From: Lachnospiraceae bacterium
GTDB taxonomy: Bacteria; Bacillota; Clostridia; Lachnospirales; Lachnospiraceae
Length of the DNA stretch: 64,000 nt
Reading direction: 5' to 3'
Assembly (NCBI GenBank): GCA_017525525.1
Contig: JAFXSQ010000054.1
Span: 1 to 64,000, forward strand
The position numbers were made by a program, and so were the translations under genes. Each line of letters begins with the position of its first letter. Within the stretch, counting starts at the first letter, position 1. The notes below the pieces were generated by a model. That model did no database searches. It had not been told where the DNA came from and saw only the letters and a program-made list of their open reading frames with translations. This document shows positions 33,583 to 52,716 of the stretch, piece after piece.

Positions 33583-34287
33583 ATGGATATATGTGAAAGA
33601 GAAAAAAGATTTCGAAGTAAAAAAGGCCTTATAAACAAAGGCTTTACTATGGTTGAGCTGATAATAGTAATTGCAATAATAGCGATTCTTGCTACAGCCG
33701 TAACACCGGCTGTCCTAAGATATATCGAAAAGGCAAGAATAGCGATAGATATCAATAATGCCGTCTTGATTAAGGATGCCCTCACAGCGTACGCATATCC
33801 CAGTGATTTCCAGGGTGAGGATGTGTATTATACGGATCCTAACACCGGCGTAACCGAGCATTTTGAGAGAGGCTGGGTATATGTTGACCAAACTGAGATA
33901 AGGTGTTCAAATCCCAGCATGGCGCTTGCTCTGATACAGGCAGGTCTCGTAGAGGTCGGTCCGGGGACGGAAGGTAAGCTTAAGGCTGCTGAAATCAGCG
34001 GCACTACCTGGCATCCGAGCGCACCGGAAGGAGATTACATCAGATTTTCGGGCATAAATGAGTATGTGTTTAATAATAAGATGTGTGTTAAGGCAAGAAC
34101 TACCTGGAATACATATCAGCTGGATGTGTATATGATAGGAGGAGAGCCGCGGTTAGGCGGAAGCGCGTCGAATACCATACGAACGAACGGACATGCCAAG
34201 GATGAAGAGGCGGCAACTTATTTCCAGGAACAGCTTGGCTTTGACGGTTCCAGGGTCACTCCTATTGGAGAACAGAATAGTAACTAA
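33583..34287 (+). CDS. Type IV pilin-like protein with long leader
   Basis: The 234-residue protein has a prepilin leader of 20 residues ending in NKG, cleaved before FTMVELIIVIAIIAILATAVTPAVLRYIEKA, so PilD should process it. Glu at mature position 5 is present. The C-terminal part is globular, without obvious repeats. GGGAGGGGAG precedes the ATG. It has its own promoter and is followed by a weak terminator, then rfbG. It is separated from the pilus operon by about 18 kb and may be a minor or alternative pilin. Confidence 0.9.
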   Translation: MDICEREKRFRSKKGLINKGFTMVELIIVIAIIAILATAVTPAVLRYIEKARIAIDINNAVLIKDALTAYAYPSDFQGEDVYYTDPNTGVTEHFERGWVYVDQTEIRCSNPSMALALIQAGLVEVGPGTEGKLKAAEISGTTWHPSAPEGDYIRFSGINEYVFNNKMCVKARTTWNTYQLDVYMIGGEPRLGGSASNTIRTNGHAKDEEAATYFQEQLGFDGSRVTPIGEQNSN

Positions 34288-34300
34288 GGATTTATAAGGA

Positions 34301-34331
34301 GGCTGTCGGCACCTGTCGGCAGCTTTCTTTT
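34301..34331 (+). terminator. Terminator after the solitary pilin gene
   Basis: GGCTG...CAGCT encloses a direct repeat of CTGTCGGCA and is followed by TTTCTTTT. The stem is short but position and T tract fit an intrinsic terminator. Confidence 0.5.
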
Positions 34332-34342
34332 CGCATTTTCGG

Positions 34343-34371
34343 TTTACAAGCTTTGATGAAAATGGTAACAT
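34343..34371 (+). promoter_or_regulatory. Promoter of rfbG, twin of the rfbF promoter
   Basis: TTTACA (34343-34348), a 17-bp spacer and TAACAT (34366-34371). TTTACAAG and the later AAAATGGTA are identical to the rfbF upstream region at 41860-41888, suggesting shared control. Confidence 0.6.
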
Positions 34372-34410: not shown

Positions 34411-35487
34411 ATGAAAACAGATTATTCGTTTTACAAAGGCAAAAGGGTACTTATAACGGGACACACGGGCTTTAAAGGCTCGTGGATGTCTAAGCTTCTT
34501 TTAATGCAGGGCGCAGAGGTTACCGGCTACGCTTTGGAACCGCCTGCGGAGCCGGCATTATTCGATATACTGCAGCTTGACAAGGATATGGATTCGGTAA
34601 CAGGTGATGTAAGAGACCTGGCTTCGCTGAAGGAGTGCTTTGACAGAGTCAAGCCCGAGATAGTAATACACATGGCGGCTCAGCCGATAGTCAGAGAGTC
34701 CTACAAGAATCCTGTTTATACTTATGAGACAAATGTCATGGGCACGGTAAACCTTCTTGAGTGCATAAGGCTGTCTGATGACGTTCGTTCGGTGGTCAAT
34801 GTCACGACCGACAAGGTTTACTTAAACCGTGAGTGGGAGTGGGGATATCGTGAGAATGAACAGCTGGACGGTTATGATCCGTATTCTAATTCCAAGTCGT
34901 GCTCTGAGCTGGTTACGGGAAGCTATATCAGAAGCTTTTTAAAGGACAAGGGAATAGCTGTATCCACCATGCGAGCCGGGAACGTGATAGGCGGCGGAGA
35001 TTACGCGGCCGACAGGATAATCCCGGACTGTGTAAGGGCAGCCTGCAAGGGAGAAAGCATAATCGTAAGAAATCCTTATTCCGTCAGACCTTACCAGCAT
35101 GTTCTTGAACCTGTTAATGCCTATCTGATGGTTGCCATGAAGCAGTATGAGGACGCGGCATACGCAGGCAATTATAATGTAGGACCGGATGAAGACGGAG
35201 CCGTGAGCACCGGCAATCTGGTGGATGAGTTCACGAAGCTGTGGACCGAACGGTCGGGGCGTGAACTGAAATGGATAAACAAGAACGAGGGCGGGCCTCA
35301 CGAGGCGGGGTATCTGAGGCTTGATTGCTCTAAGCTTAAAGCAACATTTGGCTGGAAGCCTAAGTGGGACATAAACAATGCGGTAGGAAAATCGGTTGAG
35401 TGGTATTATGCTTTTGATGAAGGAGCTGATGTAATAAAGCTTACGGAAAAGCAGATATCGGAATATATAGATATGGGGACGGAGTAA
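34411..35487 (+). CDS. rfbG: CDP-glucose 4,6-dehydratase
   Basis: RfbG converts CDP-glucose to CDP-4-keto-6-deoxyglucose. The 358 residues form an extended SDR enzyme: NAD-binding ITGHTGFKGSW near residue 14, the VTTDKVY active-site region, and the YDPYSNSK catalytic Tyr-Lys pair near residue 155. Long matches to the CDP-glucose dehydratase type include HMAAQPIVRESYKNPVYTYE and NPYSVRPYQHVLEP. rfbH follows after 4 bases. The rfbF gene that makes its substrate is 6.5 kb downstream. Confidence 0.93.
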   Translation: MKTDYSFYKGKRVLITGHTGFKGSWMSKLLLMQGAEVTGYALEPPAEPALFDILQLDKDMDSVTGDVRDLASLKECFDRVKPEIVIHMAAQPIVRESYKNPVYTYETNVMGTVNLLECIRLSDDVRSVVNVTTDKVYLNREWEWGYRENEQLDGYDPYSNSKSCSELVTGSYIRSFLKDKGIAVSTMRAGNVIGGGDYAADRIIPDCVRAACKGESIIVRNPYSVRPYQHVLEPVNAYLMVAMKQYEDAAYAGNYNVGPDEDGAVSTGNLVDEFTKLWTERSGRELKWINKNEGGPHEAGYLRLDCSKLKATFGWKPKWDINNAVGKSVEWYYAFDEGADVIKLTEKQISEYIDMGTE

Positions 35488-35491: not shown

Positions 35492-36832
35492 ATGTCAGAG
35501 TGGAAAACAGAACAGGAACTTAGAGAACATATAAAGGATTTGGTAGGTGAATACTACCGGGAATTCAAAAAAAATGATAAAGAGTTTAAACCCGGTGACA
35601 GGGTTGCGTACGCCTCAAGGGTGTTTGATGAAAAGGAGATGCAAAGCTTAGTTGATTCAGCGCTTGAATTCTGGCTTACTGCGGGAAAGTACGCAAATGA
35701 GTTCGAAAAAGATTTTGCATCGTGGCTCGGAGTGAAAAAGGCGCATCTGGTAAACTCCGGTTCATCCGCGAATCTGCTTGCGTTTATGACGCTTACCGCG
35801 CAGGAACTCGGGGACAGACAGATAAAGCGGGGAGATGAGGTTATAACAGTCGCTTGCGGGTTTCCGACCACGGTTTCGCCTGTTCTTCAGTACGGAGCGG
35901 TTCCGGTCTTTGTTGATGTAGATATACCCTCTTATAATGTAAAGGTTTCGGAGCTTGAGAAGGCCTTAAGCGATAAGACAAAAGCCGTCATGCTTGCGCA
36001 TACGCTCGGCAATCCCTTTAACCTAAAGGCGGTAAAGGAATTCTGCGAAGCGCATAATCTGTGGCTGATAGAGGATAATTGCGATGCTCTCGGTTCGGAA
36101 TATACTATTGACGGTATTACGAAGCCTACCGGCACCTGGGGCGATATCGGCACAAGCTCTTTTTATCCGCCGCATCATATGACCATGGGTGAGGGCGGTT
36201 GCGTGTATACGGACAATCCTTTGCTGAGCAAGCTGGCTCTTTCTTTCAGGGACTGGGGAAGGGATTGCGTGTGTCCTTCCGGTGTGGACGGAATATGCGG
36301 AAAGCGCTTTACCGGACAGAGGGGAGAGCTTCCCGAAGGATATGATCATAAGTACACCTACAGTCATTTCGGATACAACTTAAAAGCAACTGATATGCAG
36401 GCAGCAATCGGCGTTGAGCAGTTGAAGAAGCTTGACGGATTTACAGGCAGGAGACGAGAAAACTGGGCGTATCTCAAAGAGAAGCTCACTCCTTTGTCGG
36501 ACAGGCTTATTCTTCCGGAACCAGAAGAGGGCAGCAATCCGTCATGGTTTGGTTTTATGATTACGGTACGGGAAGGCAGCGGTTTGAAAAGAAATGATAT
36601 CACAAGAAAGCTGGAAGAAGCCAATATTCAGACCAGGCTTCTCTTCTCGGGCAATCTGATAAAGCATCCGGCCTTTGACGGAATAAGGGGAACGGATGCC
36701 TACAGGGTAGTCGGCGAGTTAACCAACACCGATTACATCATGAATAACAGCTTCTGGATAGGGGTATATCCGGGAATGACGCAGGAAATGCTTGATTATA
36801 TGGCAAAAAATATAATCAATGCAGTTGCATAA
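35492..36832 (+). CDS. rfbH: CDP-4-keto-6-deoxy-glucose 3-dehydrase (E1)
   Basis: RfbH (also DdhC) removes the 3-OH of CDP-4-keto-6-deoxyglucose, using PMP and a [2Fe-2S] cluster. The 446 residues have the DegT fold. The usual PLP lysine is replaced by histidine in SSFYPPHHMTMGEGGC, a hallmark of this enzyme, and the nearby DCVCPSGVDGICG cysteines can hold the cluster. The E3 reductase partner is not in the window. Expected product after reduction is CDP-4-keto-3,6-dideoxyglucose. It forms an operon with rfbG. Confidence 0.93.
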   Translation: MSEWKTEQELREHIKDLVGEYYREFKKNDKEFKPGDRVAYASRVFDEKEMQSLVDSALEFWLTAGKYANEFEKDFASWLGVKKAHLVNSGSSANLLAFMTLTAQELGDRQIKRGDEVITVACGFPTTVSPVLQYGAVPVFVDVDIPSYNVKVSELEKALSDKTKAVMLAHTLGNPFNLKAVKEFCEAHNLWLIEDNCDALGSEYTIDGITKPTGTWGDIGTSSFYPPHHMTMGEGGCVYTDNPLLSKLALSFRDWGRDCVCPSGVDGICGKRFTGQRGELPEGYDHKYTYSHFGYNLKATDMQAAIGVEQLKKLDGFTGRRRENWAYLKEKLTPLSDRLILPEPEEGSNPSWFGFMITVREGSGLKRNDITRKLEEANIQTRLLFSGNLIKHPAFDGIRGTDAYRVVGELTNTDYIMNNSFWIGVYPGMTQEMLDYMAKNIINAVA

Positions 36833-36896: not shown

Positions 36897-37661
36897 ATGA
36901 AAATTGACATCAATAGAAAACAGAAACTGAATAAAGGCTTTACCTTGATAGAACTTATAATAGTAATGGCGATTATGGCCATACTTGCAAGTATTATCGG
37001 TCTTAATGTTGTCCGTTACATAGACATGACCAGAAAGCAGATGGATGTGCAGACTGCGGAGCACCTGTATAAGGCAACGCAGCTCGCAATGGCCAGCGCC
37101 AATGATGATGCTTTTAACGGATGGTCGGTGTGTGAATATGCAGGTTATCCTGCTCAGTATCGCGCAACCGAGGACGGATACCCGACCAGCAGCTCGGGAG
37201 CGGGAACCTACAACATGCGTCCGGTTGCATGGTGCAGAGGAATAAAGTACAGGAATTATGAAAATTCATATTTCAAGGCTACATTGGATTATACTCCGGG
37301 GCCGGGTGATGACGGAACGGTAAAGCCTACCGACAGCCTGGCTACCAAGCGCGCGAAGCAGCAGAGAATGTTTACCAACGAGATGCTTCATTGCTTTATG
37401 CAGGACAATGCAAAGGGCGGTACCTATACGGGTACAGACAGAACCAATTATACTTTTGATGGCGCGGAAGGACTTAAGAATTTCGGTTTCAAATACAAGA
37501 AGCCGATAAAAGATATTAATGGCGGAACAAGGGAACCCGAGTGCTGGATTATATACAGACGTGATGACAACGGCTCGCCGGAGATTTGGATAGGATACAA
37601 ACAGGGCTCCGTCAGGCCTATCTGCCGTGTGTATCCGGACCCTGCGGAAGAGTATCAGTAG
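36897..37661 (+). CDS. Type IV pilin-like protein
   Basis: The 254-residue protein has a short basic leader ending KLNKG, then mature FTLIELIIVMAIMAILASIIGLNVVRYIDMTRKQM. Glu5 is present, so prepilin peptidase should process it. The globular part is about 210 residues, with GTYNMRPVAWCRGIKYRNYE and ECWIIYRRDDNGSPEIWIGY near the end, and three cysteines before the final CRVYPD. GAGGTGACGGG precedes the ATG. Placement between rfbH and the LRR protein gene is unusual for a pilin. Confidence 0.88.
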   Translation: MKIDINRKQKLNKGFTLIELIIVMAIMAILASIIGLNVVRYIDMTRKQMDVQTAEHLYKATQLAMASANDDAFNGWSVCEYAGYPAQYRATEDGYPTSSSGAGTYNMRPVAWCRGIKYRNYENSYFKATLDYTPGPGDDGTVKPTDSLATKRAKQQRMFTNEMLHCFMQDNAKGGTYTGTDRTNYTFDGAEGLKNFGFKYKKPIKDINGGTREPECWIIYRRDDNGSPEIWIGYKQGSVRPICRVYPDPAEEYQ

Positions 37662-37708
37662 GGAAAGGGATTGCTTCAAATAAGCGATATTGTTTAAGAA
37701 AAAGTAGG

Positions 37709-37744
37709 AGAATCGTCGACTTAAAAAGTTGACGATTCTTTTTT
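37709..37744 (+). terminator. Terminator of the second solitary pilin gene
   Basis: AGAATCGTCGACTT and AAGTTGACGATTCT pair with one mismatch around AAA, followed by six or more Ts. Its right arm contains the -35 box of the next promoter. Confidence 0.85.
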
Positions 37745-37832: not shown

Positions 37833-40800
37833 ATGAGAAAAAAGGCGGCAAAGAGGCTGTTTACACTTGCTCTTGCTTTGTCGGTAGCTGTTTCGGGAGT
37901 GTCACCGAACGGTATCGTTAAGGCTGAAGAAGCACAGGAGGAAATAGTCGCTGAGATGCTTTCGGAAGAAGGTTCAGAAGAGACTTCTGAAGAAGTGTCA
38001 GAAGACATTTCGGAAGATAATTCCGGGGAAAGCACGCAGGAAGAAGTGACGGAGGCGGTTACGGAGGCCCCGGAGGCAGAAGCTTTTGAGGGAGAAGCTT
38101 TTGAAGGAGAGTCAATCAATGCGGCTCCGGAAGAGTCATTATCGGCTGAAGAAGCGATAGTGGCTACAAGTAATTATGAGACATACTGGCCGGTAGGACA
38201 GAAGTATGGTTTTGATTATCAGATTGACGAGAATGGTATAACTATTCTCCATCTTTCTTATGCAGATCCCAACAATCAATCGGATCATTATGCACACAAG
38301 TCCATAATAGAGGGAGAGATAGTGATTCCCGAAAGCATTACGGCTAAGGACGGAAAGACCTATAAGGTTACTTCTCTCGGAGAGTCGGCCTTTAACTATA
38401 AGACTATCACAACCTTTGCGGTCGACAGAACAGCAACGGCAAATGTTCCCGCGCCGAGTGCGGAGACTCAGTACTTCAGGACCAACCCTATCTTTGTTAC
38501 CATTCCTTCTTCGATTCAGAAAATCGAAGCATATTGCTTTAACGAAGAAATAAAGTTTATGTTCTATGATAAGAATGAAGAAGATGTAAACAAAAGAAAG
38601 CTTGAGCTTCCCTCAAGCCTGGTATCGGTAGGAAACTATGCGTTTTATGGCTGCAGTCTGAATGACGGACATTTTGTATTCCCCGAAGGTCTTAAGGAAA
38701 TCGGAAATTATGCTTTCTTCGGCATGGCTACCATGAAGGGCGGACTGGATATTCCGGGAACCGTAGTTTCGATAGGTAATTACGCCTTCAGCGGTTTGGG
38801 CGGAATCAGTGAAGAGGTTGTTATAAATAATGGCAGCGATGCGCTTTCGATAGGCGAGTATGCATTTAACGGACTTCAGGCTAAGAGTCTGGCAATCAAG
38901 AGAACCACGATATCATCGATTGGCAAGTATGCATTCAACGGTATGTCGAGAGCAGTGGCGGATGAATCGATAACGACGCTCTTCCCCGAAAATGCATCGG
39001 TAAAGGTGATAGATGATTATGCCTTCCAGGGTTGTCGAGAGCTCGGATATGCGCTTAATCTCCCGAAGGATCTTACATATTTGGGCGCAAGTGCTTTCCA
39101 AAACTGTGAGTCGTTCTCTATTCCCGTAGTGTCGGGGGCTCAGAAGCTTGTTATACCGGATGCCATAACAGAGCTCAAGGATTATACCTTCTGTGAGTGC
39201 TCGACAATGTCCGGAAAGCTTGATCTTAACAACGTAACAACTATTGGCAGATATACCTTTTATGATTGCTATTATCTGTATGGTGACCTGGATCTTTCTA
39301 AGGTTGACAAGCTTGGCGAGAGCGCCTTCGAGCTCAGGTTTATAAGGACTAAACCGGGAGCTGTAGATGAGAAGGAAAAGGATTTGACAAGCACGACCAT
39401 GATCAATGAACTCATGGAGAACCTTAGCGACGGCGCCGCAACCATGATTGAGGACGCTTACCTTACCGGCTTTACCGGCAAATTGATCTTATCAAAGAAG
39501 ATTGATAACATTCCGGCAAAGTGCTTTGCAGGCCAGGCAAGACTGGGCGGACTTCAGTACAGCCTCGAGATTCCCGATACGGTTAAGTCTATAGGCGCAA
39601 GCGCTTTCTATACATGCCCTTCCTTTGTGGGTGACCTCGAGATACCTGACAGTGTAACTGTTATCGGAGCAGGCGCATTCATGAACATGAGAGGAATCAA
39701 CGGAAAGCTTACACTTCCCAAGGATTTAAAGAGAATAGAGTCAAATACTTTCGAGAACGATTATAACATGAAGAGTACACTTGTCATTCCCGAAGGTGTG
39801 TCGGATATAGGTTATAAGGCGTTCTCAAGATGCCGCAGCCTGTACGGAAGTCTTGAGTTCCCGAAGGAATTGAAGACACTCGGCGAGGCAGCGTTCTACA
39901 GATGCCGCAGCTTTACCGGAGATCTTATATTCCCGGATACCGTTACCAACATCGGCGCAAGCTGCTTCTATGAGGCTCAGGGCTTTGACGGCGACTTAAA
40001 GCTTCCGGCAAACCCTGCCTTCACAAGAATTAACGAGAAAGTATTCTACAATGTTGAGTTGATAGAATCAAAAGGCACCAAGCTTTCGGACGGCGAGGAC
40101 AAGCTTATGGCAGAGGGCTGGCTGAATAAGCCGAACGAGGTTGCCGATGGCGGTGTGGTTATACCGGACAACATAATGTACATAGGAGATACGGCTTTCT
40201 ATAACTGTATCAATATCGCCAACATTCAGATGAAGGGTAATGTCGACACCATTTCGGACACCGCGTTTGACTCAACCATAAGCAGTCAGATGAGAATGCA
40301 GTATCATACCTATAAGAATGATGAATGTCCGTGCTACAACTTCCTTAAGAAGGAGTATCCGGTTGACTTTGAGCAGAGAATTCTGTATCCGTTGCCGGAG
40401 GTATCAATCAACGTATATAAGGTAACAAAGAATGGCGACAAGGAAGAGAAGGAACTTCTCTATGAGGATAAGACCTATGATATTGTGGCCGGCACAAATA
40501 TACAGCTTGCGGTTGAAGCAACCGATGAAAACGGCGAGTCCGTCGATTCACCTATTGCCTATACTTCGGAGGAGCCTGCGACCCTGGGTGTCGGAGCTAA
40601 CGGAGTGGTTTCAGCAAGACTTCTCGAATCCTCAAAGGAAGTCGGAGCGCTTGTAAAGACCAGGGACGGAAGCGGAGCTAAATTCAGGGTTAACTTCAAG
40701 GTTTACGGCACTGATGAGCTGGTAAGCTCCTTCAATATCAAGGATTCACTTACGGCAGAGGCTCCTGCTACAAGCATAAGCTTAAAGAGAACCGCAACCG

Positions 40801-43785: not shown

Positions 43786-44830
43786 TTGCATAGATAGAGA
43801 TTTTAACGGAAAGACGGTATTGGTAACCGGAGCCACCGGACTTATCGGAAATGTGCTTACCAAAAAGCTGCTTGAACAGGGAGCGGCCGTATATGCTGTC
43901 GGCAGAAGGATGTCTAAACTCAGTGAAGTATTTAAGGACTATGCTGACAACGACCAGCTTTTTTTGTGTGAATCGGATGTATCGGATGAACTGCCTTGCA
44001 AGGAAGTGTATTTTGATTACATATTTCATGCGGCAGGTCCTATATCGGGTCGTCTGATAAAGGAAAAGCCGGCGGATATGGTAAAGGTAAATGTATCGGG
44101 TGTCGAAAACTGTTTGAAGCGCCTTCTTTATCAAAAAGAAAGGCTTCAAAAGAATGAACCTCAAAAAAAAGCGTCCGGCGGTCGACTTATCGTATTCTCT
44201 TCGGCAACCGTATATGGCGATAGCGAGGGCGAACTCATAGGCGTGTCCGAGGAGGACGGTTGCAGTCTGTGCAATCCCGCTTCCGTGGCTGCGGTATATC
44301 CGGAGACCAAGAGGATGGTTGAGGTGCTGGCCGGGGCTTATGCAAGGCAGTACGGGCTTGATGTATGCATAGCAAGAATTGCGTATGTATACGGATACTC
44401 TCCGGTTATGCCCGATACGGCATTTTATGAATTTGTCAGACGGATATTAAACAACGAAGACATAAAGATAAATGCAACTGTGATGAACAGGAGAGACAAT
44501 ATATATGTTGAAGATGCGGTAAGCGGAATACTTACGGTTGCGCTTCGGGGCGAAAGCAAAGAAGCGTATAATGTGAGCTTGAGCGGAGAAAACGGCAATT
44601 GCGCTTCGGCAAGTGAAATCGCGGAATGCATGGCGGAGTGCGCAAGGGAGGCCGGACATTATAATAAGAAGGTTCTGTTTGGTGAACAAGGCTGTTCGTC
44701 GCTTGACGGAATCATGCTGAAGAATGATAAACTGAAGGCGTTGGGCTGGAATCCCGAAACAGGCCTTAAGGCCGGAATAAAGAAGACGCTTGAATATTAC
44801 TTTGCTTACGGAACGGAAAAAACGATATGA
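43772..44830 (+). CDS. NAD-dependent epimerase/dehydratase (SDR), possible CDP-sugar reductase
   Basis: From ATG 43772 the product has 352 residues, with an NAD-binding TGATGLIGNVL near residue 16, FSSATVYGD, and the catalytic YPETK near residue 176. It is an extended SDR. An in-frame GTG at 43742 lies inside the upstream gene with no better binding site. The start overlaps the GT2 gene stop and the end overlaps the next gene by 4 bases. In this operon it could act like YerF, reducing a branched keto sugar, but the substrate is inferred only from context. Confidence 0.75.
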   Translation: MIKNDCIDRDFNGKTVLVTGATGLIGNVLTKKLLEQGAAVYAVGRRMSKLSEVFKDYADNDQLFLCESDVSDELPCKEVYFDYIFHAAGPISGRLIKEKPADMVKVNVSGVENCLKRLLYQKERLQKNEPQKKASGGRLIVFSSATVYGDSEGELIGVSEEDGCSLCNPASVAAVYPETKRMVEVLAGAYARQYGLDVCIARIAYVYGYSPVMPDTAFYEFVRRILNNEDIKINATVMNRRDNIYVEDAVSGILTVALRGESKEAYNVSLSGENGNCASASEIAECMAECAREAGHYNKKVLFGEQGCSSLDGIMLKNDKLKALGWNPETGLKAGIKKTLEYYFAYGTEKTI

Positions 44831-45867
44831 CTGATAGAATAATGACTCTTGATTGTACGCTGAGGGATGGAGGTTTTGCTCTGGAGGATGCTTACAAAAA
44901 CGATATCAGACCGGGGCAATTCACAAAGCAGGAAAGAGATACCATAAAAGAACATATGGAAAAGGCGGGGCTTGATATTATAGAGATAGGCGCCGTCGAA
45001 AAAACAGGCACCGACAAAACGGGTTTTGCCATATATAACAGAATAGAAGATGCGGGTTCGGCGCTTGGCAAAAAAAACGACGATGTTCTTTATGCGGTTT
45101 TTTACAGGGGGCCGGATATTTCTATGGATGAGATACCTGACCGGGCGCCGGGGCTTCCGGATATTACGAGAGTTTGCATAAGGTATTCGGAGTTGGAAAA
45201 GTCCCTGGATTTCTGCGAGGGTTTGTGCAAAAAGGGCTATAAAGTCTTTATTCAGCCGATGGTTACCGTAAGATACACAAGGGAGGAGCTTACGCTCCTT
45301 GCAAACCGGGCCAATGACATGGGGGCTTATGCGCTTTATTTTGTGGATAGCTACGGTTATATGACGCCCGAGGATGTGAAGGCGTATTTTGATTTTTATG
45401 ATTCGATTCTTCGTGATGATATAAGGATAGGTTTTCATGCGCATAACAATATGGAGATGGCTTTTGCGAATGTTCTTGAATTCATTTCCTGCAGCGGCGC
45501 AAGAAATATAGTTATTGATTCCTGCGCGTCGGGCATGGGACAGGGCACGGGAAATCTGCAGACCGAGGTTATACTGAATTATCTCAACAACGCTCACGCA
45601 AAGAGTTATAAGACGGGGCATGTGTATGAGGTATGCGAGCTGATTGATAAATACAACGAAGGGCGTCTGTGGGGCTATCATCCGGTCAGGTTTATCCCGG
45701 CGGCGAATAAGACGGCGTATAAATTCGCCATGGCGCTGAAGAACAACTATGATTGCAGCTACAGGGAGATAGATGAGATACTGTCCGATATTCCGGAGAG
45801 TATGAGATACAGATATACACCGGATGACACAAAGAAGCTGATTGCTATGAGAAACGGGGAAGTATGA
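44827..45867 (+). CDS. HMGL-like / 4-hydroxy-2-oxovalerate-type aldolase
   Basis: The 346-residue protein has the HMGL TIM-barrel pattern: LDCTLRDGGFALED at the N-terminus, YFVDSYGYMTPEDV near residue 175 and GFHAHNNMEMAFAN near residue 203. The latter carries the metal-binding HxH. Such enzymes cleave or form C-C bonds next to a 2-keto acid. It overlaps both neighbours by 4 bases (ATGA), including the TPP enzyme that follows, so the two products are probably made together. The substrate is unknown. Confidence 0.8.
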   Translation: MTDRIMTLDCTLRDGGFALEDAYKNDIRPGQFTKQERDTIKEHMEKAGLDIIEIGAVEKTGTDKTGFAIYNRIEDAGSALGKKNDDVLYAVFYRGPDISMDEIPDRAPGLPDITRVCIRYSELEKSLDFCEGLCKKGYKVFIQPMVTVRYTREELTLLANRANDMGAYALYFVDSYGYMTPEDVKAYFDFYDSILRDDIRIGFHAHNNMEMAFANVLEFISCSGARNIVIDSCASGMGQGTGNLQTEVILNYLNNAHAKSYKTGHVYEVCELIDKYNEGRLWGYHPVRFIPAANKTAYKFAMALKNNYDCSYREIDEILSDIPESMRYRYTPDDTKKLIAMRNGEV

Positions 45868-47576
45868 CAGGGGCAGAGCTTGTTGTAAAAAAACTTATAG
45901 ATGAGGGGATAACGGATGTCTTCGGAGTGCCGGGAGGAGTAGTCCTTCCGCTTTTGTATGCTCTCGAAGACTGTGAAGGCATAAGCCCGAGGTTAGGATA
46001 TAACGAGCAGGCCTCCGGCTTCGCGGCGATAGGATATGCGCAGGCCTCCGGAAGACCGGGCGCGGCTTATGCAACCAGAGGTCCGGGGATAATGAATATG
46101 CTTACCGCTATGGCGGAGGCGTATTATGAGTCTGCTCCCGTAGTGTTTCTGACGGCGCATGCGAACGCGTCAAAGAAAAGTGAAAGACGAACCGACTATG
46201 ATCAGGAAACGGATATAATCTCGGTTGCCGCTTCATTTACAAAATATGCGGCTGCGGTAGAAAAAAGCAGCGATTTGGGCCCGGCTCTCGACAAAGCGAT
46301 AAAGCTAGCGAAAGACGGAAGGAAAGGGCCGGCGCTGCTTGATATAGCGCACAAGGTTCTTGTAAATGCGGCGGAGCTTGAATGCGATTTGCAGGACGAA
46401 ATTGCGCTTTCGGACAAAAACGATGAAGGACTGCCGGAGAAATCCGCCGGAGATAAAGAGGACGAAGCGGCAGCGCGCTTTAAGGAACTGCTTCTTAAGA
46501 GCAAAAGACCGGTTTTCCTTATAGGGGACGGAGTCAGGCAGGCCGGAGCTGTCCAAGTCATGAGGAGGATATCAGCAAAGTGCGGCATACCGGCTGTTTC
46601 GAGCAGGGGAGCCCAGGATATCCTGACAGGCTCTGAACTGTATTTCGGATATATCGGAAGTCATGGGGTTCGGTATGCAAATTGCATTCTTGACAGCGCA
46701 GACTGTGTTATAGCGCTTGGAAACAGGCTTTCTTTTCCTTTGGAGTCGGAGAGCTACGGACATTTTTTTGAGAATAGAGAGCTTCTGCATATCGATATAG
46801 ATCCGGCGGAACTGACGAGGTTTGGAAAGGGGCGGTCCTTTTGCATGGATGTAAAGTCTTTTCTGGAAAAGCTGTCGGAGGAAGAGTATGAATATCCGGT
46901 TCGTAAGGAGTGGCTTTCGGAATGCAAGAGATATAAGGAAGCATATCGTATGGTGGATATGCCTGTTGTGGTTAAGGATATAATCGGCCTGCTTGAAGAC
47001 TGCGGCGACTGCAGGGCATTGGTGTGTGATGTGGGCAATACAGAGTTCTGGGTGGCAAGAGCTTATGAATATCTGAGACCCGCAGCCCCCATGTATGTAT
47101 CTAAAAGCTTCGGGACACTCGGGAGCGGCGTGGGCAAAGCAATCGGCGCATATTATGCCTTAAGAAAGCCGGTTGTGCTTATATCGGGAGATCAGGGGCT
47201 GCAGTTTGGAGTGAATGAATTGATGCATATCGGTAAGCATAAGCTGCCGATACGGGTGGTGATAGTAAACAACGGCGCATCCGGCATGATACGTGACAGC
47301 GAGCGCAGAAAGCATAAAGCGGATGTGCATACAACGGATGACACGGGCTACGGCACTCCGGATTTTGAGAGTCTTGCCGCGGCTTACGGCCTTAGCTATA
47401 TCTGTGTCGAAGAGGGTAAAGCGTTGGAAGGAAGGACCGGGCTTGCCGGCTGCGGCGGGAATCCGATTCTTTTAGAGCTTAAGGTTGATCGGGACGAAGA
47501 GCTTACGCCTTATCTGCCTCGAGGTAATAAGCTGAGCGGGCAGTATCCTCATTATAATAATCAGATTATTGAATAA
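45864..47576 (+). CDS. Thiamine-diphosphate enzyme, acetolactate-synthase-like
   Basis: The 570 residues have the three-domain layout of acetohydroxyacid synthases: an N-terminal Pyr domain with GVPGGVVLPLL and the catalytic Glu in YNEQASGFAAIGYAQ, a central domain, and a C-terminal PP domain with SGDQGLQFGVNEL and VIVNNGASG binding TPP-Mg. It lies next to an aldolase and CDP-sugar genes instead of ilv genes. YerE of Yersinia, from this family, transfers acetyl from pyruvate to CDP-4-keto-3,6-dideoxyglucose, which is a plausible role here. Confidence 0.8.
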   Translation: MTGAELVVKKLIDEGITDVFGVPGGVVLPLLYALEDCEGISPRLGYNEQASGFAAIGYAQASGRPGAAYATRGPGIMNMLTAMAEAYYESAPVVFLTAHANASKKSERRTDYDQETDIISVAASFTKYAAAVEKSSDLGPALDKAIKLAKDGRKGPALLDIAHKVLVNAAELECDLQDEIALSDKNDEGLPEKSAGDKEDEAAARFKELLLKSKRPVFLIGDGVRQAGAVQVMRRISAKCGIPAVSSRGAQDILTGSELYFGYIGSHGVRYANCILDSADCVIALGNRLSFPLESESYGHFFENRELLHIDIDPAELTRFGKGRSFCMDVKSFLEKLSEEEYEYPVRKEWLSECKRYKEAYRMVDMPVVVKDIIGLLEDCGDCRALVCDVGNTEFWVARAYEYLRPAAPMYVSKSFGTLGSGVGKAIGAYYALRKPVVLISGDQGLQFGVNELMHIGKHKLPIRVVIVNNGASGMIRDSERRKHKADVHTTDDTGYGTPDFESLAAAYGLSYICVEEGKALEGRTGLAGCGGNPILLELKVDRDEELTPYLPRGNKLSGQYPHYNNQIIE

Positions 47577-47644: not shown

Positions 47645-49405
47645 ATGTATATCGAAAAGATTAACGGTCCCGAGGACCTTAAAAAACTGACGATGGATGA
47701 GTGTATGGTTCTTGCGGGAGAAATCCGGGAGCTTATTCTTAAGAGAACCTCTGACATAGGCGGCCATGTGGCATCAAACTTAGGAATAGTGGAAATAGCT
47801 ATCGCCCTTCATTATGTATTTGATTCTCCGAAGGACAAGATGGTTTTCGACGTGTCGCATCAGTCCTATGCTCACAAGATACTTACGGGCAGGAAAGAGG
47901 GCTTTGCGGACTCGGATAAATACAGCGAGATAAGCGGATATACAAATCCAAATGAAAGCGCGCATGACCATTTCTTTGTCGGCCATACATCCACCTCCGT
48001 GAGTCTTGCCTGCGGTCTTGCCAAGGCAAGGGATTTGGCCGGAGGCAAAGAAAATGTGATTGCTGTCATAGGTGACGGTTCCCTTAGCGGAGGAGAAGCT
48101 TTTGAAGGTCTGGATTTTGCCGGCGGTGAGCTTAAGAGTAATTTTATAGTTATAGTAAATGATAACGAGATGTCTATAGCTGAGAATCACGGTGGTATAT
48201 ATGGAAGTTTAAAGGCCTTAAAAGACGGAAATGGCAGGGCGGAGAATAATTACTTCAAAGCACTTGGCTTTGATTACAGATTTGTGGCTGACGGGAACGA
48301 TGTGGCTGCCGTAACGGAGGCGTTGAAGGAAGTAAAGGACATCGATCATCCGGTGGTGGTGCATATATCTACCAAGAAGGGAAAAGGGTATTCCTTTGCT
48401 GAAGAGGATGAGGAAGCATGGCATTGGAGGAAACCATATAACCTTGAAACCGGCGAGCTGAAGAGTGACTTTAACGGCGAGCGCTATGACAGGGTGGTGC
48501 GCGATCACATTTTGGAAAGGATAAAGACCGATGACAGGATAGTAGCGATGCTGGCGGCAGTCCCGGATTCGCTATCCTTTACTCCGGACATGAGAAAACA
48601 GGCGGGGAAGCAGTTTGTTGATGTCGGCATAGCAGAGGAGCATGCCATAGCTATGGCGGCAGGCATTGCGAGGAACGGAGGCAAACCTGTTTTTGCGACG
48701 CTCAGTACATTCTTCCAGCGCACATACGATCAGATGTCGCAGGAGCTTTGCATAAACAAATGCGCGGCAACGCTGCTTGTCATAAATGCCTCGGTGTATG
48801 CCGTAAATGACATATCGCACATAGGCATATTCGATATTCCGCTGATATCCGGGATGCCTAATATGATTTATCTTGCTCCGACCAACAAGCAGGAGTACTT
48901 AGCGATGCTTGACTGGAGCATAGACCAGGATGAATACCCGGTTGCAATAAGGGCTCCGAGAAACGGAGTGTTCTATGCCGAGGGTGAGGTTGAATGTGAA
49001 TATGGCATAAATCCTGAGTACAGGATACAAAAGCAGGGCGAAAAGGTTGCCGTTCTTGCCTTGGGAGATTTCTATCAGATGGGCGAAGAGGTTGTAGAAA
49101 AGCTTAAGGCCGACAAAGGCATAGAGGCTACTCTGGTTAACCCGAGATACATAACGGGGCTTGACAGGAACACGCTTGATGAGCTCGCGAAGACGCATGA
49201 GGTTATAATAACTCTCGAGGACGGTGTGCTCGACGGCGGCTTCGGACAGAGAGTGGCGGGCTATCTTGGACGGTATAAGGGAGTGGGAGTGCTAAACTTT
49301 GGCTTGAAGACCGAGTTTTTGGACAGATATAACCTTAAGGCGGTTATGGAAAGCAATCATCTTACTCCGGAGCTTATCTGTGAGGATATATATAAAATAT
49401 TATAA
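47645..49405 (+). CDS. DXS-like thiamine-diphosphate transketolase-family protein
   Basis: The 586 residues resemble 1-deoxy-D-xylulose-5-phosphate synthase: GGHVASNLGIVEIAIALHYVF, VFDVSHQSYAHKILTGR, GHTSTSVSLACGLA, GDGSLSGGEAFE near residue 144, then DVGIAEEHAIAMAAGIA in the second domain. It is shorter than usual DXS (about 620) and diverges at several conserved spots (DVSHQ for DVGHQ). Its place in a sugar operon suggests a specialised paralogue. True DXS activity cannot be excluded. AAGGAGG precedes the ATG. Confidence 0.7.
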   Translation: MYIEKINGPEDLKKLTMDECMVLAGEIRELILKRTSDIGGHVASNLGIVEIAIALHYVFDSPKDKMVFDVSHQSYAHKILTGRKEGFADSDKYSEISGYTNPNESAHDHFFVGHTSTSVSLACGLAKARDLAGGKENVIAVIGDGSLSGGEAFEGLDFAGGELKSNFIVIVNDNEMSIAENHGGIYGSLKALKDGNGRAENNYFKALGFDYRFVADGNDVAAVTEALKEVKDIDHPVVVHISTKKGKGYSFAEEDEEAWHWRKPYNLETGELKSDFNGERYDRVVRDHILERIKTDDRIVAMLAAVPDSLSFTPDMRKQAGKQFVDVGIAEEHAIAMAAGIARNGGKPVFATLSTFFQRTYDQMSQELCINKCAATLLVINASVYAVNDISHIGIFDIPLISGMPNMIYLAPTNKQEYLAMLDWSIDQDEYPVAIRAPRNGVFYAEGEVECEYGINPEYRIQKQGEKVAVLALGDFYQMGEEVVEKLKADKGIEATLVNPRYITGLDRNTLDELAKTHEVIITLEDGVLDGGFGQRVAGYLGRYKGVGVLNFGLKTEFLDRYNLKAVMESNHLTPELICEDIYKIL

Positions 49406-49485
49406 ATATAATTATTCTAAATGAATTATTATAAAAAAAACGATTATTATAAAAAACAATTATTATTATAATAGGAATGAATGAG

Positions 49486-51303
49486 ATGAAAAAATTTGTT
49501 GAGAAAAGATACATACCGATTCTTGCGGTTATTATAATTGCGCAGCTTATCCTGTCGGCGCTGCTGTTTAATTTCAAAAAACAGAGCTTTCATTCGGACG
49601 AGCTGTGGTCGTATGGCTTTGCAGCCAGCTCCGAGGGCGGGTATGTCTATGCGAACCCTACGCATGATGATTATATGAATTATTTTGAGTGGGAGGATTG
49701 TGATGTTTTAAAAGACTATATAGTGGTGGATAAAAGTGAGATTTTTGACTATAAGAGCGTCTACGACAACTGTGCCAACGATCTTCATGCGCCGCTTTAT
49801 TTCTACATTCTTCATTTTATCCTTTCGCTGTTTTGTGGAACCTGGAGTAAGTGGTTTGCCTTTATTATAAATGCGGTGGCCTTTGCTCTGATACAGGTTT
49901 ACCTGCATAAGCTTGTGATGCTTATTACGAAGGACAGATTTTTTGCCACGATGTGCAGCCTTTATTACGGCTTTACCATGGGGCTTATCAATATGACAAT
50001 CTATCTTCGAACCTATGCTTTGGGCGCGGCCTTCATATTGATGTTTATCTATTATTCCACGAGGCTTTATTATAATCATGAGAACGGCTATTGGAAAGAT
50101 ATTATCCGCTCGGCGGTATTCATGCTGCTTGCGGTGCTGACGGTAAACCTGAATCTGGTTGCGGCCTTTGTGGTTACCTTGCTTTACTGCGTGTATTATC
50201 TTGAGAAAAAGAAGTTTGTCGTGATGTTCAGGTACGGCTCGGCCATGCTTATTGCCGTGTTGCTTGCCTTTGGGCTTTTTCCCGCAACCATCAAACAGCT
50301 TTTTGCGGCGGGGGAGAGATCTACGCTTGACGGATATCCGCCGGGATGGCAGTTTAAGATATATTGGGCTTATATACAGCACGATATAATAGGCTTCAGG
50401 AATTCGATATGGCCGGAGATGACCTTCACTTATATAGGGGTGGGCATCCTTGTTCTGATTCTGATAACCGTGCCGCTTTATTTCGTATTCAGAAAGGAAA
50501 CCTGGCTTCAGAAGGCAAAGGCCGGTGTAAAAAAAGGCTGCAGCGCGTTGTGGGAGAAGAGGAAACACTTTCAGTATCCGATTGTGGTTGCCTTTGCGAC
50601 GGTCTTCTTTGTGCTTTTGGCGGATGCTTACGTTACGAACATCTCGACCATGATTGAGCACAGCAGAAGATACATTTTCATAGTGTATGCCGTATATGCC
50701 TGCTTTATTACGACCTTTTTCTATTATCCGGTTAAGTGGATATTTAAACAGCGCTGGGGCGGATATGCTTTGCTTGCCGCAGCGATGTGCGTGTGCATGT
50801 GCGTGGTTCACTTTGACAGATCGGAAGCCTTCTTTTTTGAATATGCAAAGGACGGGGTGCATCTTGATGAACTGGAGGATAATGCGGACGTTATGCTCAC
50901 GCTTGACGACGCTTTTGTGCTGGTCTGCGCGACGGACAAGCTTATGGACAAGGGCAGATTTTTTACGACCACCAACAGTTATATTATGATACACGGACAT
51001 GATGAGTATGCGGATGAAAGCATAGGAAAGAATCCTATGTACCTGGCGCTGTCGGTGGGATACCTCGAATATGATGAGGAACCGAAGTTCGATGAGGATG
51101 AGAATGGCGTCAAAAAAAGAAATGAAGCTATAGCTAAGGTTTACAGGGAGGATATGGAAGAAAGAGGTTCCATATCAGGCATAAAGCTGAGTGAGCTCAA
51201 AAAGACCTTTATGGACACTTCGGGAGCAAAATCACTTGAGTATGTGGGCACGGATTCTTTGTTCGGAAGAAGAATAGAGATATACAGAGTGCATTTTGAG
51301 TGA
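49486..51303 (+). CDS. Polytopic membrane protein, GT-C-type glycosyltransferase candidate
   Basis: The product (605 residues from ATG 49486; ATG 49477 is only one base from the AGGA site) has about ten hydrophobic helices. The first extracytoplasmic loop carries SFHSDELWSYGFA with a DE pair, and later NDLHAPLYFYILHF, features seen in GT-C enzymes such as ArnT/PMT relatives that use polyprenyl-linked sugars. The C-terminal 150 residues are mostly soluble. It follows the DXS-like gene in the operon. The acceptor is unknown. Confidence 0.65.
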   Translation: MKKFVEKRYIPILAVIIIAQLILSALLFNFKKQSFHSDELWSYGFAASSEGGYVYANPTHDDYMNYFEWEDCDVLKDYIVVDKSEIFDYKSVYDNCANDLHAPLYFYILHFILSLFCGTWSKWFAFIINAVAFALIQVYLHKLVMLITKDRFFATMCSLYYGFTMGLINMTIYLRTYALGAAFILMFIYYSTRLYYNHENGYWKDIIRSAVFMLLAVLTVNLNLVAAFVVTLLYCVYYLEKKKFVVMFRYGSAMLIAVLLAFGLFPATIKQLFAAGERSTLDGYPPGWQFKIYWAYIQHDIIGFRNSIWPEMTFTYIGVGILVLILITVPLYFVFRKETWLQKAKAGVKKGCSALWEKRKHFQYPIVVAFATVFFVLLADAYVTNISTMIEHSRRYIFIVYAVYACFITTFFYYPVKWIFKQRWGGYALLAAAMCVCMCVVHFDRSEAFFFEYAKDGVHLDELEDNADVMLTLDDAFVLVCATDKLMDKGRFFTTTNSYIMIHGHDEYADESIGKNPMYLALSVGYLEYDEEPKFDEDENGVKKRNEAIAKVYREDMEERGSISGIKLSELKKTFMDTSGAKSLEYVGTDSLFGRRIEIYRVHFE

Positions 51304-51321
51304 TGACAGAAGCGAGGAAGC

Positions 51322-52716
51322 ATGAACGGATTCATAGACAGATTCAGGAAGAGAACAGCAGAACTGCTCGGGACAACGGCGGCTCCGTATATTATATACG
51401 GAGCGCTTGTTCTTGTTATGCATGTAGTGTTTTTTATCTATCACGGGGATGATATAAGAGCGCTGAACTCGCTTGAATCCTCGACGGGGTTTTCCGACTG
51501 GGGGTTTAAGGAGGAGAATGCAAGGAATATCATAAATTTTTTAACGTATTATGTTTTGAAGGCAGGGACAGCGGTCTTCATTGTTCTGGATACAATAATA
51601 ATGGTGGTGATTTATAACACGCTACATTATCTCGTATTTTCGAAAAGAACCGTTTATACGAGATACATTATGCTTCTGTGTCTTCTGCTTTTTCCTTTTC
51701 ATCTCAGTGTGTCGGTCGGGTGGGTGCTTACGCCGATAGCATATATCTGGACCTTTATGTGTGCGTGTATCGCCTGTATTACCGTCAGGAGGTATTTTGA
51801 GCACAAAGAAAACGGCTTGATAATATGCGTACTAATCACCCCGTTTCTGATCTTTGCCTCCGACAAGGAGGATCTTGCGGTTGTGATGTTTGTTGTGTTC
51901 GCATATATGTTTGCAAGGTCTGTGAAGGACAAGCGCATAAGCGCGGCTTTCGCCTACGAAGCGCTTGTATCCGCAGGATTTATTGCTCACGCGCTCACAC
52001 AGAGGAATATCGACAGACTTGAGGTTACTACGGAGCGACTTCATTTCTATGAATACCTGGACATAGGCTTTACGGGTACATTGCAGGAAATGATATTTGA
52101 TTATGATTTTGTGTTTTTCGTTGTTCTTCTTTTAATAAGCGCTCTTGTAATTGTAGGAATCAAGAAGACGGCTTTGGGTGGCGGGAAAAAATATGCCGGC
52201 ATCGCGGCTGCTCTGCTCTCGGTGGCGCTGTGGATAGTGTTCGGTTTTTATTTGGGGCTTGTGCGGGCCGATATATTTGACGAATATGTATATGACGGGT
52301 TGATAGATTCGCGCACGATAACCGAGGGAAAATATGATTCTGCCGTGAATATATTCTATGAATTGGCGGTTTTGGTTATCTGGATTCTGCTTTTTGTGAA
52401 TATTTACCATGCCTTTGATGCCTCTTTTAAAGCTCGGCTTTTGTCAGTGTTGTTGTTTGCCGGCATCTGCGGCAGGACTACGGTGGGCTTTGCGGGTAAT
52501 CACCAGTTTTATTTTGAAAGGACGTTTTTGTTCCTTTATTACATTTTCATAATTATTGCCTCGGTAGCCTCCTCGGAGATATACGAGCGGGTCGGAACGA
52601 AGGGGAGACAGAGATTGTTTGAATTCCTGGGCTTTGCAGCCTTGTGTGTTGTTGTGGGAATTGTATATAATCTGGAAAAGTACTATAGGCTATCTATTAT
52701 GTATTACGGAGGTTGA
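51322..52716 (+). CDS. Polytopic membrane protein of unknown function
   Basis: The 464-residue protein has about ten to twelve hydrophobic segments and little soluble mass. An early loop has FIYHGDDIRALNSLESSTGFSDWGF, with a DD pair after the first helix. This is a position where GT-C glycosyltransferases hold acidic residues, so a related role is possible. I do not recognise the family. It begins 18 bases after the preceding membrane protein gene and is the last gene before the pilC promoter. Confidence 0.65.
   Translation: MNGFIDRFRKRTAELLGTTAAPYIIYGALVLVMHVVFFIYHGDDIRALNSLESSTGFSDWGFKEENARNIINFLTYYVLKAGTAVFIVLDTIIMVVIYNTLHYLVFSKRTVYTRYIMLLCLLLFPFHLSVSVGWVLTPIAYIWTFMCACIACITVRRYFEHKENGLIICVLITPFLIFASDKEDLAVVMFVVFAYMFARSVKDKRISAAFAYEALVSAGFIAHALTQRNIDRLEVTTERLHFYEYLDIGFTGTLQEMIFDYDFVFFVVLLLISALVIVGIKKTALGGGKKYAGIAAALLSVALWIVFGFYLGLVRADIFDEYVYDGLIDSRTITEGKYDSAVNIFYELAVLVIWILLFVNIYHAFDASFKARLLSVLLFAGICGRTTVGFAGNHQFYFERTFLFLYYIFIIIASVASSEIYERVGTKGRQRLFEFLGFAALCVVVGIVYNLEKYYRLSIMYYGG

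Follow-up and report, generated by a model that had tools for sequence, protein, structure and literature searches.

A candidate type IV pilus decoration island with a predicted branched-sugar pathway and two polytopic, GT-C-like proteins in a Lachnospiraceae bacterium

A gene island inside a type IV pilus locus

The window that we analysed is a stretch of 64,000 nucleotides from a gut-dwelling Lachnospiraceae bacterium (contig JAFXSQ010000054.1), in which all of the genes described here are read on the forward strand. It encodes the PilB extension ATPase (23964-25685; T2SSE, 440 bits, with MshEN), the PilT retraction ATPase (25757-26809; T2SSE, 158 bits), the platform protein PilC (52838-54094; T2SSF, 206 bits), the main pilin PilA, which is the predicted acceptor (54119-54763; N_methyl, 34.8 bits), the prepilin peptidase PilD (54845-55645; A24_N_bact and Peptidase_A24) and PilM (55683-57350; PilM_2, 98 bits). 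The genes by which a type IV pilus locus is recognized, namely those of PilB, PilT, PilC, PilD, PilM and N-methylated pilins, are all present. Of the loci retrieved with pilC, 34 were read across both genes, and in all of them pilT is located immediately 5' of pilC; in the window 26 kb separate the two. Relatives of PilA (44-57%) sit 3' of pilC at the loci of the genus. MBOAT/AlgX-type acylation genes are also found near pilB in the window.

The pilus-gene island, as delimited by reading the sequence, extends from 33583 to 52716. A pilin gene with an N-terminal methylation motif (33583-34287; N_methyl, 30.1 bits) and a second pilin gene (36897-37661; 35.9 bits) enclose rfbG-rfbH with spacers of 123, 4 and 64 bp; this group is preceded by a promoter-like site at 33449 and closed by a 17-pair terminator-like stem at 37706. 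The gene of a surface protein comes next, followed by rfbF and then by the genes of a GtrB-like loader, an SDR, an aldolase, two ThDP enzymes and two polytopic proteins, the last of which ends 121 bp before the start of pilC. An earlier note on this DNA had described this arrangement, with two pilin genes around rfbG-rfbH and an rfbF operon stopping just short of pilC, and the description holds: every gene lies at its position and in its frame, both pilins exceed the Pfam N_methyl cut-off of 21.2 bits, and rfbG and rfbH are identified by TIGR02622 and PRK15407, respectively. The surface-protein gene between the second pilin and rfbF (37833-41750; 1305 residues with LRR_5 repeats of the BspA type and ChW repeats), a possible alternative acceptor, was absent from that note.

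The best 16 matches of the first pilin to the examined pilins are confined to its N-terminal part, and the non-self matches of the second, in 117 genomes including its own, are likewise N-terminal only and reach residue 123 at most. The main pilin had been noted to be devoid of cysteine and rich in Ser and Thr, which is true (0 Cys; Ser and Thr make up 27.7% of the part after the helix), but this composition does not split the genomes with transferases from those without: Ser/Thr content showed no difference according to what lies upstream of pilB (P = 0.41; 15 versus 13 pilins, with five pilins left out).

Predicted sugar and its putative loading onto a lipid carrier

RfbF (glucose-1-phosphate cytidylyltransferase, 41977-42762; TIGR02623, 370 bits, cut-off 300), RfbG (CDP-glucose 4,6-dehydratase, 34411-35487; TIGR02622, 448 bits, cut-off 278) and RfbH (CDP-4-keto-6-deoxyglucose 3-dehydrase, 35492-36832; PRK15407, 714 bits, cut-off 423) all score above their cut-offs, in agreement with the sugar synthesis previously ascribed to this gene set, to which an aldolase and two ThDP enzymes can now be added. 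RfbH contains an HHMTMGEGG stretch and cysteines 197, 259, 261 and 269, which we take to be the site where a His replaces the PLP lysine and four cysteines with Fe-S-like spacing, respectively; the score, the His in place of Lys and the four cysteines together are what is expected of an RfbH/E1 dehydrase.

An SDR-type NAD-dependent sugar epimerase/reductase (43742-44830; Pfam Epimerase, 122 bits, and motifs) precedes an HMGL/4-hydroxy-2-oxovalerate aldolase-like enzyme (44827-45867; Pfam HMGL-like, 73 bits, with RDGG and HAHN motifs; PRK08195, 105 bits, below the cut-off of 229). The adjoining IlvB-like ThDP enzyme (45864-47576; three TPP_enzyme domains) is a predicted sugar-branching enzyme of the YerE/ErwE kind. 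Its top PDB matches (6lpi, 206.2 bits; 5ahk, 205.9 bits) are both named acetolactate synthase, and its context of RfbF, RfbG and RfbH fits a YerE-like role. Its closest relative among the 117 genomes (45%) is in G013, where the gene order is conserved; another IlvB-like match is found in its own genome on C11. The DXS-like ThDP enzyme (47645-49405; PRK12315, 859 bits) is a second DXS-type copy in the genome, the other being at C19, and has a 65% relative at the equivalent position of locus L105 in G013.

Because the set also comprises the HMGL-type aldolase and the IlvB-like and DXS-like ThDP enzymes, we revised the predicted sugar. RfbF and RfbG would produce CDP-4-keto-6-deoxyglucose, from which, judging by gene identity, RfbH and a reductase would take off the 3-OH. 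The aldolase may provide a 4-hydroxy-2-oxo acid that the IlvB-like enzyme would decarboxylate, coupling the product to C4 of the keto-sugar, to give a C4-branched deoxy sugar of the yersiniose or erwiniose kind that the SDR would trim; the DXS-like enzyme perhaps supplies an aldehyde or ketose for the branch. YerE and the YerE-like ErwE are reported to use CDP-4-keto-3,6-dideoxyglucose, and ErwE to favour donors such as 4-hydroxy-2-oxo acids (PMC12247030), which agrees with the aldolase gene adjoining the ThDP gene. As in the yersiniose and erwiniose systems described there, an acetolactate-synthase-like ThDP enzyme is encoded with CDP-deoxysugar genes; the island differs by its HMGL aldolase and DXS-like enzyme, its place beside pilus rather than LPS genes, and a YerE-like function that is a prediction.

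The predicted loader is a GtrB/ArnC/PgfS-like GT2 (42829-43785) with a Glycos_transf_2 domain and two C-terminal hydrophobic spans. Its top NCBIfam match is PgfS (NF047588, 157.9 bits, under the cut-off of 500), and it matches sll0501 (134 bits) and ArnC-type chains (101 bits) in the PDB; the gene formerly proposed as a GtrB-like loader is present. No flippase gene was recognized inside the island; one GtrA is encoded elsewhere in the genome, at C62. The GT2 would pass the sugar to undecaprenyl phosphate and the GtrA-type flippase may then turn it outward.

Two polytopic proteins as candidate GT-C transferases

The proteins encoded at 49477-51303 and 51322-52716 have nine hydrophobic spans each in a simple scan, and mutual homology of their families was not detected. 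The first shows near-invariant H39, D41 and E42 after helix 1, with D41/E42 in at least 90% of the 28 rows of alignment A3, and its AlphaFold2 model (pLDDT 85.9, pTM 0.85) places a helix at residues 12-34, just before D41/E42. This protein thus has, past its first transmembrane helix, an acidic motif, which we take to be that of GT-C enzymes. Three of the 28 family members match PMT_2 and three match GT87 (E ≤ 0.01), two members from the genus exceeding the PMT_2 cut-off; because of these matches, and judged from sequence, the protein likely acts as a GT-C transferase. The second protein, possibly also GT-C, has an invariant GDD after helix 1 in the seven rows of alignment A2; one of seven members matches YfhO (2.8e-4), no PDB sequence match was found for it at E ≤ 1, and its relatives recur directly before pilB. 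The earlier reading of two GT-C-like polytopic proteins stands as regards their presence, their spans and the matches of relatives of the first, but neither window protein itself matches a GT-C family (no Pfam match at E ≤ 0.05 and no NCBIfam match).

Linkage to pilus genes in other genomes

With the first polytopic protein as single query, matches were found in 10 of 117 genomes, its own included. A copy adjoins pilB in six of the nine others (G004, G008, G014, G016, G025 and G038); such a copy was not seen in G013, G028 and G058. A second scan, with seven aligned members as query, gave 30 loci. At 16 of them the GT-C gene lies no more than three genes from a pilus or pilin gene; at the other 14 none is that close. 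The pilus-linked loci follow four patterns, with the GT-C gene ahead of pilB, ahead of pilC, behind pilB-pilT-pilin(-pilin), or next to one or two pilins. The binomial chance of 16 in 30 is 7e-20, 1e-13 or 4e-9 at assumed, unmeasured backgrounds of 2%, 5% or 10%, for loci that are non-independent. Profile A1 combined the window protein of the first family with six members adjoining or close to pilB, and profile A2 that of the second family with six loci fetched because of pilC; the counts lean to pilus-linked members because both were seeded mostly with such members.

Within the genus, the first family lies within 20 kb of pilC, or adjoins a cut pilB, in six of eight carrier genomes (own included), and the second lies within 20 kb of pilC for 10 of 20 matches. 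Two of the eight matches of a PMT_2 control belong to the first family; none of the remaining six shares a contig with the orthologous pilC. One or the other family is found upstream of pilB in 13 of 28 readable genus genomes; the remaining 15 have different cargo there or none.

Sugar genes accompany the transferase at several pilus loci. An Oscillospiraceae locus (L078) reads pilD-pilB-pilT-pilin-pilin, YfhO pieces, GT-C and then rfbG-rfbH-HMGL-ThDP, and sugar, ThDP and GtrB-like genes occur together with GT-C and pilB in G025 (L034/L065) and G038 (L060). In Ruminococcus albus 8 the GT-C gene lies between uvrB and uvrA. Modules of GT-C, rfbGH, ThDP and rfbF without visible pilus neighbours are found at L088, L091 and L092, the L091 sequence starting 114 bp ahead of its GT-C gene. 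In G013, rfbF-gtrB-SDR-HMGL-ThDP-DXS-rfbG (L105; rfbH was not seen in this stretch) sits on a different contig from pilC, in what reads as a polysaccharide-type cluster that also encodes an ABC-type ATPase and transferase-like proteins.

No relative was found that has the sugar operon but lacks pili, the case that the earlier note had named as a refutation: the genomes of L091 (G028) and L105 (G013) have orthologous pilC. T2SSF genes, which are also found in other secretion systems, are present in those of L088 and L092. No T2SSF match came from a Treponema genome that has a distant GT-C relative (L099), and no sugar genes were seen beside that GT-C gene. As for a pilin or pilus-linked glycan as the target, the tie of the polytopic families to type IV pilus genes elsewhere favours it, but L088, L091, L092 and L105 speak against an exclusive pilus role, as does the pilin Ser/Thr content, which does not track the transferases.

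A candidate pilus decoration system

We propose, with a probability of roughly 0.57, that the island serves to decorate the type IV pilus: undecaprenyl phosphate would receive a C4-branched, CDP-derived deoxy sugar, which a GT-C enzyme would transfer to the pilus, the acceptor being inferred. One or both GT-C-like proteins would move the sugar onto an exported acceptor, most probably a pilin, either PilA or the two pilins encoded with rfbG-rfbH. The pilus is likely to be the coated structure because some relatives have such gene sets at the same pilus locus.

On our best reading, the island would work like Pseudomonas TfpW and Streptococcus Pgf, a likeness of proposed operation that makes no claim to family membership. 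In group IV Pseudomonas aeruginosa, TfpW is a GT-C arabinosyltransferase encoded beside the type IV pilin gene, and it glycosylates the pilin (PMC11841053); the island GT-C-like gene also sits among type IV pilus genes. The differences are D-arabinofuranose instead of a predicted CDP-derived branched sugar, and, for the island, a place at pilB/pilC, a monoderm host and two polytopic proteins. The S. mutans PgfS-PgfM1-PgfE-PgfM2 set comprises a GT2, an SDR epimerase and a pair of polytopic proteins, all encoded near genes for surface proteins (PMC5856776). The island has the same complement and a GT2 with PgfS as top NCBIfam match, but this GT2 reaches 158 of the 500 bits that the PgfS cut-off requires, a CDP-sugar pathway comes in addition and the locus is that of a type IV pilus. 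GtrA-GtrB-Gtr is a three-part system; the island resembles it by its GtrB-like loader and predicted outside-acting GT-C, and differs in having no recognized GtrA of its own, one being found elsewhere in the genome.

The sugar could instead be destined for a cell-surface polysaccharide or teichoic-type polymer, the pilus locus being a mere gene location. GtrB/GT-C systems are known to decorate polymers as well, and the L105 module in its polysaccharide-type cluster and the three loci without visible pilus genes point the same way; we nevertheless consider this unlikely, as it leaves unexplained why two polytopic families without detected mutual homology recur at pilB/pilC, and why GT-C genes directly neighbour pilins in other families. 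More doubtful still is another surface protein as acceptor, such as the LRR_5/ChW protein, with the pilins as bystanders. Its gene does lie between two groups of sugar genes, and S. mutans Pgf is reported to modify the adhesin Cnm, encoded beside pgfS, as well as WapA (PMC5856776). Yet BLAST matched the LRR_5/ChW protein at just two loci, L089 and L095, at distances of about 3.5 and 1.7 kb from the GT-C gene; no pilus gene lies within three genes at either, and the loci around pilB/pilC gave no match.

The region upstream of pilB might also be a neutral insertion hotspot whose mixed cargo says nothing of pilus function. At least 13 changes of content are counted along the pilB-pilT-pilC tree (without shuffle control), and CAAX-protease-like proteins or a permease are among the cargo, which may also be absent. 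We judge this improbable given that one of two GT-C-like families is among the cargo in 13 of 28 genomes, that sulfatase-type and choline-kinase-type cargo likewise suggests surface modification, and that GT-C genes are pilus-linked in other families too, before pilC and after pilins. Somewhat short of even odds, we would suggest that the genus pilus locus holds, upstream of pilB, a slot for exchangeable decoration genes, with different outside-acting chemistries in related species: GT-C glycosylation with varying sugars, phosphocholine or glycerol phosphate as suggested by sulfatase-family plus choline-kinase/nucleotidyltransferase genes, and, near pilB in the window, MBOAT/AlgX-type acylation. 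The surface chemistry of the pilus would then change faster than its machinery, possibly through selection by pilus-specific phages.

To our knowledge, most pilin glycosylation enzymes have been described in Gram-negative bacteria. In Clostridia, an R. albus pilin is cited as post-translationally modified, with no enzyme named in the excerpt available (PMC3672088). An enzyme family that keeps recurring next to pilus genes of Clostridia would supply candidates for the missing transferases. It also predicts an unusual branched sugar on the pili of gut bacteria, and makes the swapping of pilus chemistry a testable model.

Organization of the pilus region

The window corresponds to bases 1–64000 of contig C7 of a 3.19 Mb genome in 75 contigs. 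Its main type IV pilus (T4P) parts are pilB (23964), pilT (25757), pilC (52838), the main pilin (54119), pilD (54845) and pilM (55683), and every gene named in the earlier note was found in it. After the pilM region come a large pilin-motif protein of 687 aa (starting at 58455) and a 1071-aa protein without a Pfam match, the pair spanning 58455–63734. The same genome carries a second, distant pilus system on contig C24 (20000–59999, loci L066/L067; PilC 33%, PilB 41%); it includes pilin-motif proteins 1136 and 2017 aa long.

pilT and pilC are neighbours, 6–292 bp apart, in each of the 34 pilC-centred loci where both could be read; these loci come from the genus and from a few other families. 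In the window the two genes are split by 26 kb (26809–52838) holding the sugar-gene island (33583–52716), opposite-strand PFOR-type genes and other genes. This split is not confined to the window: a GT-C gene lies directly before pilC in three fetched loci (L075, L084 and L085), and pilins, not pilC, come after pilT in four others (L077, L078, L079 and L082). A G+C anomaly marking the island was considered and rejected, the content varying from 42.8 to 52.0% across the window (2 kb steps) without a shift at either island end. MBOAT and AlgX-type genes at 18235–21156, about 3 kb upstream of pilB, are possibly O-acylation machinery.

Gene spacing suggests that the island consists of two transcription units. 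The first contains pilin 33583 (proteins are named by their start), rfbG, rfbH and pilin 36897, with gaps of 123, 4 and 64 bp; it is preceded by a promoter-like site at 33449–33477 (11 of 12 matches) and followed by a terminator-like stem of 17 pairs at 37706–37742. The second runs from rfbF to 51322 (gaps of 66, −44, −4, −4, 68, 71 and 18 bp) and stops 121 bp short of pilC. Such sites are weak evidence, since the window scan gave 44 promoter-like sites versus 35.1 in shuffles and 25 terminator-like stems versus 15.3. A 1305-aa LRR_5/ChW surface protein, absent from the earlier note, lies between the second pilin and rfbF.

The two island pilins were also considered as orthologues of GT-C-adjacent Oscillospiraceae pilins. 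First map scores of 33–40% identity were not upheld on closer look, and orthology was rejected: for 33583 the top-scoring matches listed, and for 36897 every match in the 117-genome comparison set except the protein itself, are confined to the N-terminal part. The Ser/Thr richness and missing cysteine of the main pilin were discarded as evidence, the Ser/Thr argument having failed.

The sugar module

Three carbon–carbon bond enzymes also escaped the first description of the island, namely an HMGL-type aldolase, an IlvB-like ThDP enzyme and a DXS-like ThDP enzyme, and their presence changes the predicted sugar. In passages of PMC12247030, YerE is described as using pyruvate as the source of an activated acetaldehyde that it adds to CDP-3,6-dideoxy-4-keto-D-glucose, and ErwE as favouring longer, functionalized donors such as 4-hydroxy-2-oxo acids. 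We infer that the island aldolase would supply 4-hydroxy-2-oxo acids to the ThDP enzyme.

The order rfbF–gtrB–SDR–HMGL–ThDP–DXS–rfbG recurs in genome G013 (locus L105), which makes the DXS-like gene part of the module; another DXS is present in the own genome. In L105 a GtrA-like protein, read from sequence, comes after rfbG, rfbH was not seen in the stretch, and the surroundings resemble a polysaccharide cluster. The only GtrA found in the own genome is on contig C62, outside the island, and is a candidate flippase. Loci L091 and L092 repeat GT-C, rfbG, rfbH, GtrB-like, HMGL, ThDP, SDR and rfbF without visible pilus genes, as does L088, with a weak HMGL match and the SDR aside. Versions with pilus genes occur in L078 (no GtrB-like gene or rfbF in the stretch) and L060/L098 (no rfbG/H in the stretch). 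The module can thus occur away from pili, whereas the transferase families are often tied to them.

TRANSFERASES

Pfam gives no match for protein 49477, the first polytopic protein, and a PDB search with its profile none either; three members of its family match PMT_2 and three match GT87. Judged by this GT-C protein, the closest public assemblies are Lachnospiraceae from rumen and gut. In a 28-row alignment (A3, which leaves out the cut proteins of L083 and L090 and the distant L099 from 30 loci), the invariant positions include F31, Y81, F90, D102, P106 and H113, and H39, D41, E42 and W44 are almost fully conserved. In the AF2 model (pLDDT 85.9, pTM 0.85) this H39/D41/E42/W44 motif starts a short helix right after the first long helix, and the C-terminal part is formed of helices and strands. 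In family 51322, that of the second polytopic protein, a GDD after helix 1 is invariant in seven rows and one of seven members matches YfhO; its GT-C identity is less certain than that of 49477. Homology between the two families was not confirmed (hhalign probability 4%), nor was homology of the polytopic families to two L031 polytopic proteins, in one comparison each.

Linkage of the two families to pilus genes

The least biased count uses window protein 49477 as sole query against the 117 genomes: ten match, own included, and a copy adjoins pilB in six of the nine others (G004, G008, G014, G016, G025 and G038). In G013, G028 and G058 no relative was seen near the orthologous pilC (the surroundings being unmapped for G013 and G058). 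Within the 37 genus genomes, profile A1 gives 11 matches in eight genomes, own included, six of which have a copy that adjoins a cut pilB or lies no more than 20 kb from the orthologous pilC. For family 51322, profile A2 gives 20 matches in 12 of the 37, and for ten of these pilC is no more than 20 kb away. Seven of the ten are there by construction, as A2 combines the window protein with six loci that had been collected on account of their pilC. Of eight genus matches to the control family PMT_2, two belong to family 49477, and not one of the remaining six shares a contig with the orthologous pilC. These genus counts are small and come from fragmented assemblies.

Searching genome contigs with A1 gave 30 loci, a scan that leans to pilus-linked relatives because A1 consists of the window protein and six members near pilB (without the cut L040 protein). 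Most are labelled as Clostridia and L085 as Alistipes, and seven genomes are common to both sets (L070 is G004, L071 G008, L072/L076 G025, L074 G014, L081/L090 G016, L091 G028 and L098 G038). Sixteen loci have a pilus or pilin gene no more than three genes away: the GT-C gene is directly before or beside pilB in L070, L071, L072, L074, L090 and L098, directly before pilC in the three loci with that arrangement, after pilB–pilT–pilin(–pilin) in L077, L078, L079 and L082, and adjoins one or two pilins in L080, L087 and L097. None was found within three genes in the other 14 (L073, L076, L081, L083, L086, L088, L089, L091–L096 and L099). Among these, L081 stops 573 bp downstream of the GT-C gene, L083 and L091 start close before it, L076 is the far copy in the G025 island, a pilin is found 9.4 kb from the gene in L093, and in Ruminococcus albus 8 (L086, 9995–11893) the relative lies between uvrB and uvrA. 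T2SSF genes, which are not limited to T4P, occur in 14 of 15 source genomes tested; the Treponema genome has none.

A variable slot upstream of pilB

We surveyed DNA around the orthologous pilC in the 36 other genus genomes, 28 of which are readable upstream of pilB; G010 was left out as its contig starts inside pilB, and G005, G007, G012, G018, G023, G026 and G030 as their best pilC match is distant, cut or absent. This slot was read to the limit of the stretch or contig (ORFs of at least 100 aa) and is bounded, where reached, by a conserved minus-strand gene of ~210 aa. Its content varies. Relatives of 49477 occupy it in five genomes (G004, G008, G014, G016 and G025) and relatives of 51322 in eight (G001, G003, G015, G019, G027, G034, G035 and G036), so that 13 of the 28 hold one of the two window families; G027 has two 51322-family copies, 13–16 kb upstream of pilB. 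The slot of G031 holds other polytopic proteins, of which one matches DUF6056. In four genomes (G011, G021, G022 and G029) it holds a group of sulfatase-type or choline-kinase/nucleotidyltransferase genes, and in seven a CAAX-protease-like protein is all that is present (the G002 contig starts at this point); three slots are without cargo. Sulfatase-type cargo is reminiscent of the phospho-group pilin modification known in Neisseria.

A 212–241-aa membrane protein lies directly before pilB in nine genomes (L031, L036, L037, L041, L042, L044, L046, L050 and L056). These nine proteins are the CAAX-protease-like cluster, and the one member tested against Pfam matches the Rce1-like CAAX-protease family. 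Before pilB, G022 (L048), G029 (L049) and G011 (L054) have a fusion of choline kinase and nucleotidyltransferase together with a permease-like protein (Pfam-tested in one member per cluster), and L048 and L054 also carry 60KD_IMP proteins of 930–944 aa, a cluster with a sulfatase match near the cut-off in two of four tested (one from L058). G029 yielded the kinase and permease genes, and no sulfatase-type gene was identified there.

On a PilB+PilT+PilC tree (34 rows, 30 labelled, quick method, no shuffle control), the slot type changes at least 13 times and GT-C-like presence or absence at least seven times, with L031 scored present. The nearest relative of the window on this tree is G027. For the RNase J-type gene that relatives have near the slot, the own genome offers no more than a weak, partial match; the left flank of the window therefore differs.

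Relation to known systems

Literature titles and abstracts, with subscription papers thinly covered, yielded no pilus-linked GT-C enzymes in Clostridia. According to passages of PMC3672088, the Ruminococcus flavefaciens pilus cluster comprises pilD, pilB, pilT and two pilins, its pilin is suggested to be modified (the authors favour phosphate groups) and the R. albus pilin is cited as modified; those passages name no transferase for either. Passages of PMC4471445 describe pilin modifications as most often glycans and R. albus PilA1 as mediating cellulose adhesion. The island would be a functional analogue, rather than a demonstrated member, of TfpW, a GT-C acting on pilin (passages of PMC11841053), and of PgfS-M1-E-M2 (abstract and passages of PMC5856776); its GtrB-like protein scores below the PgfS cut-off. 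On balance the island is somewhat more likely than not (about 0.57) to decorate the pilus.
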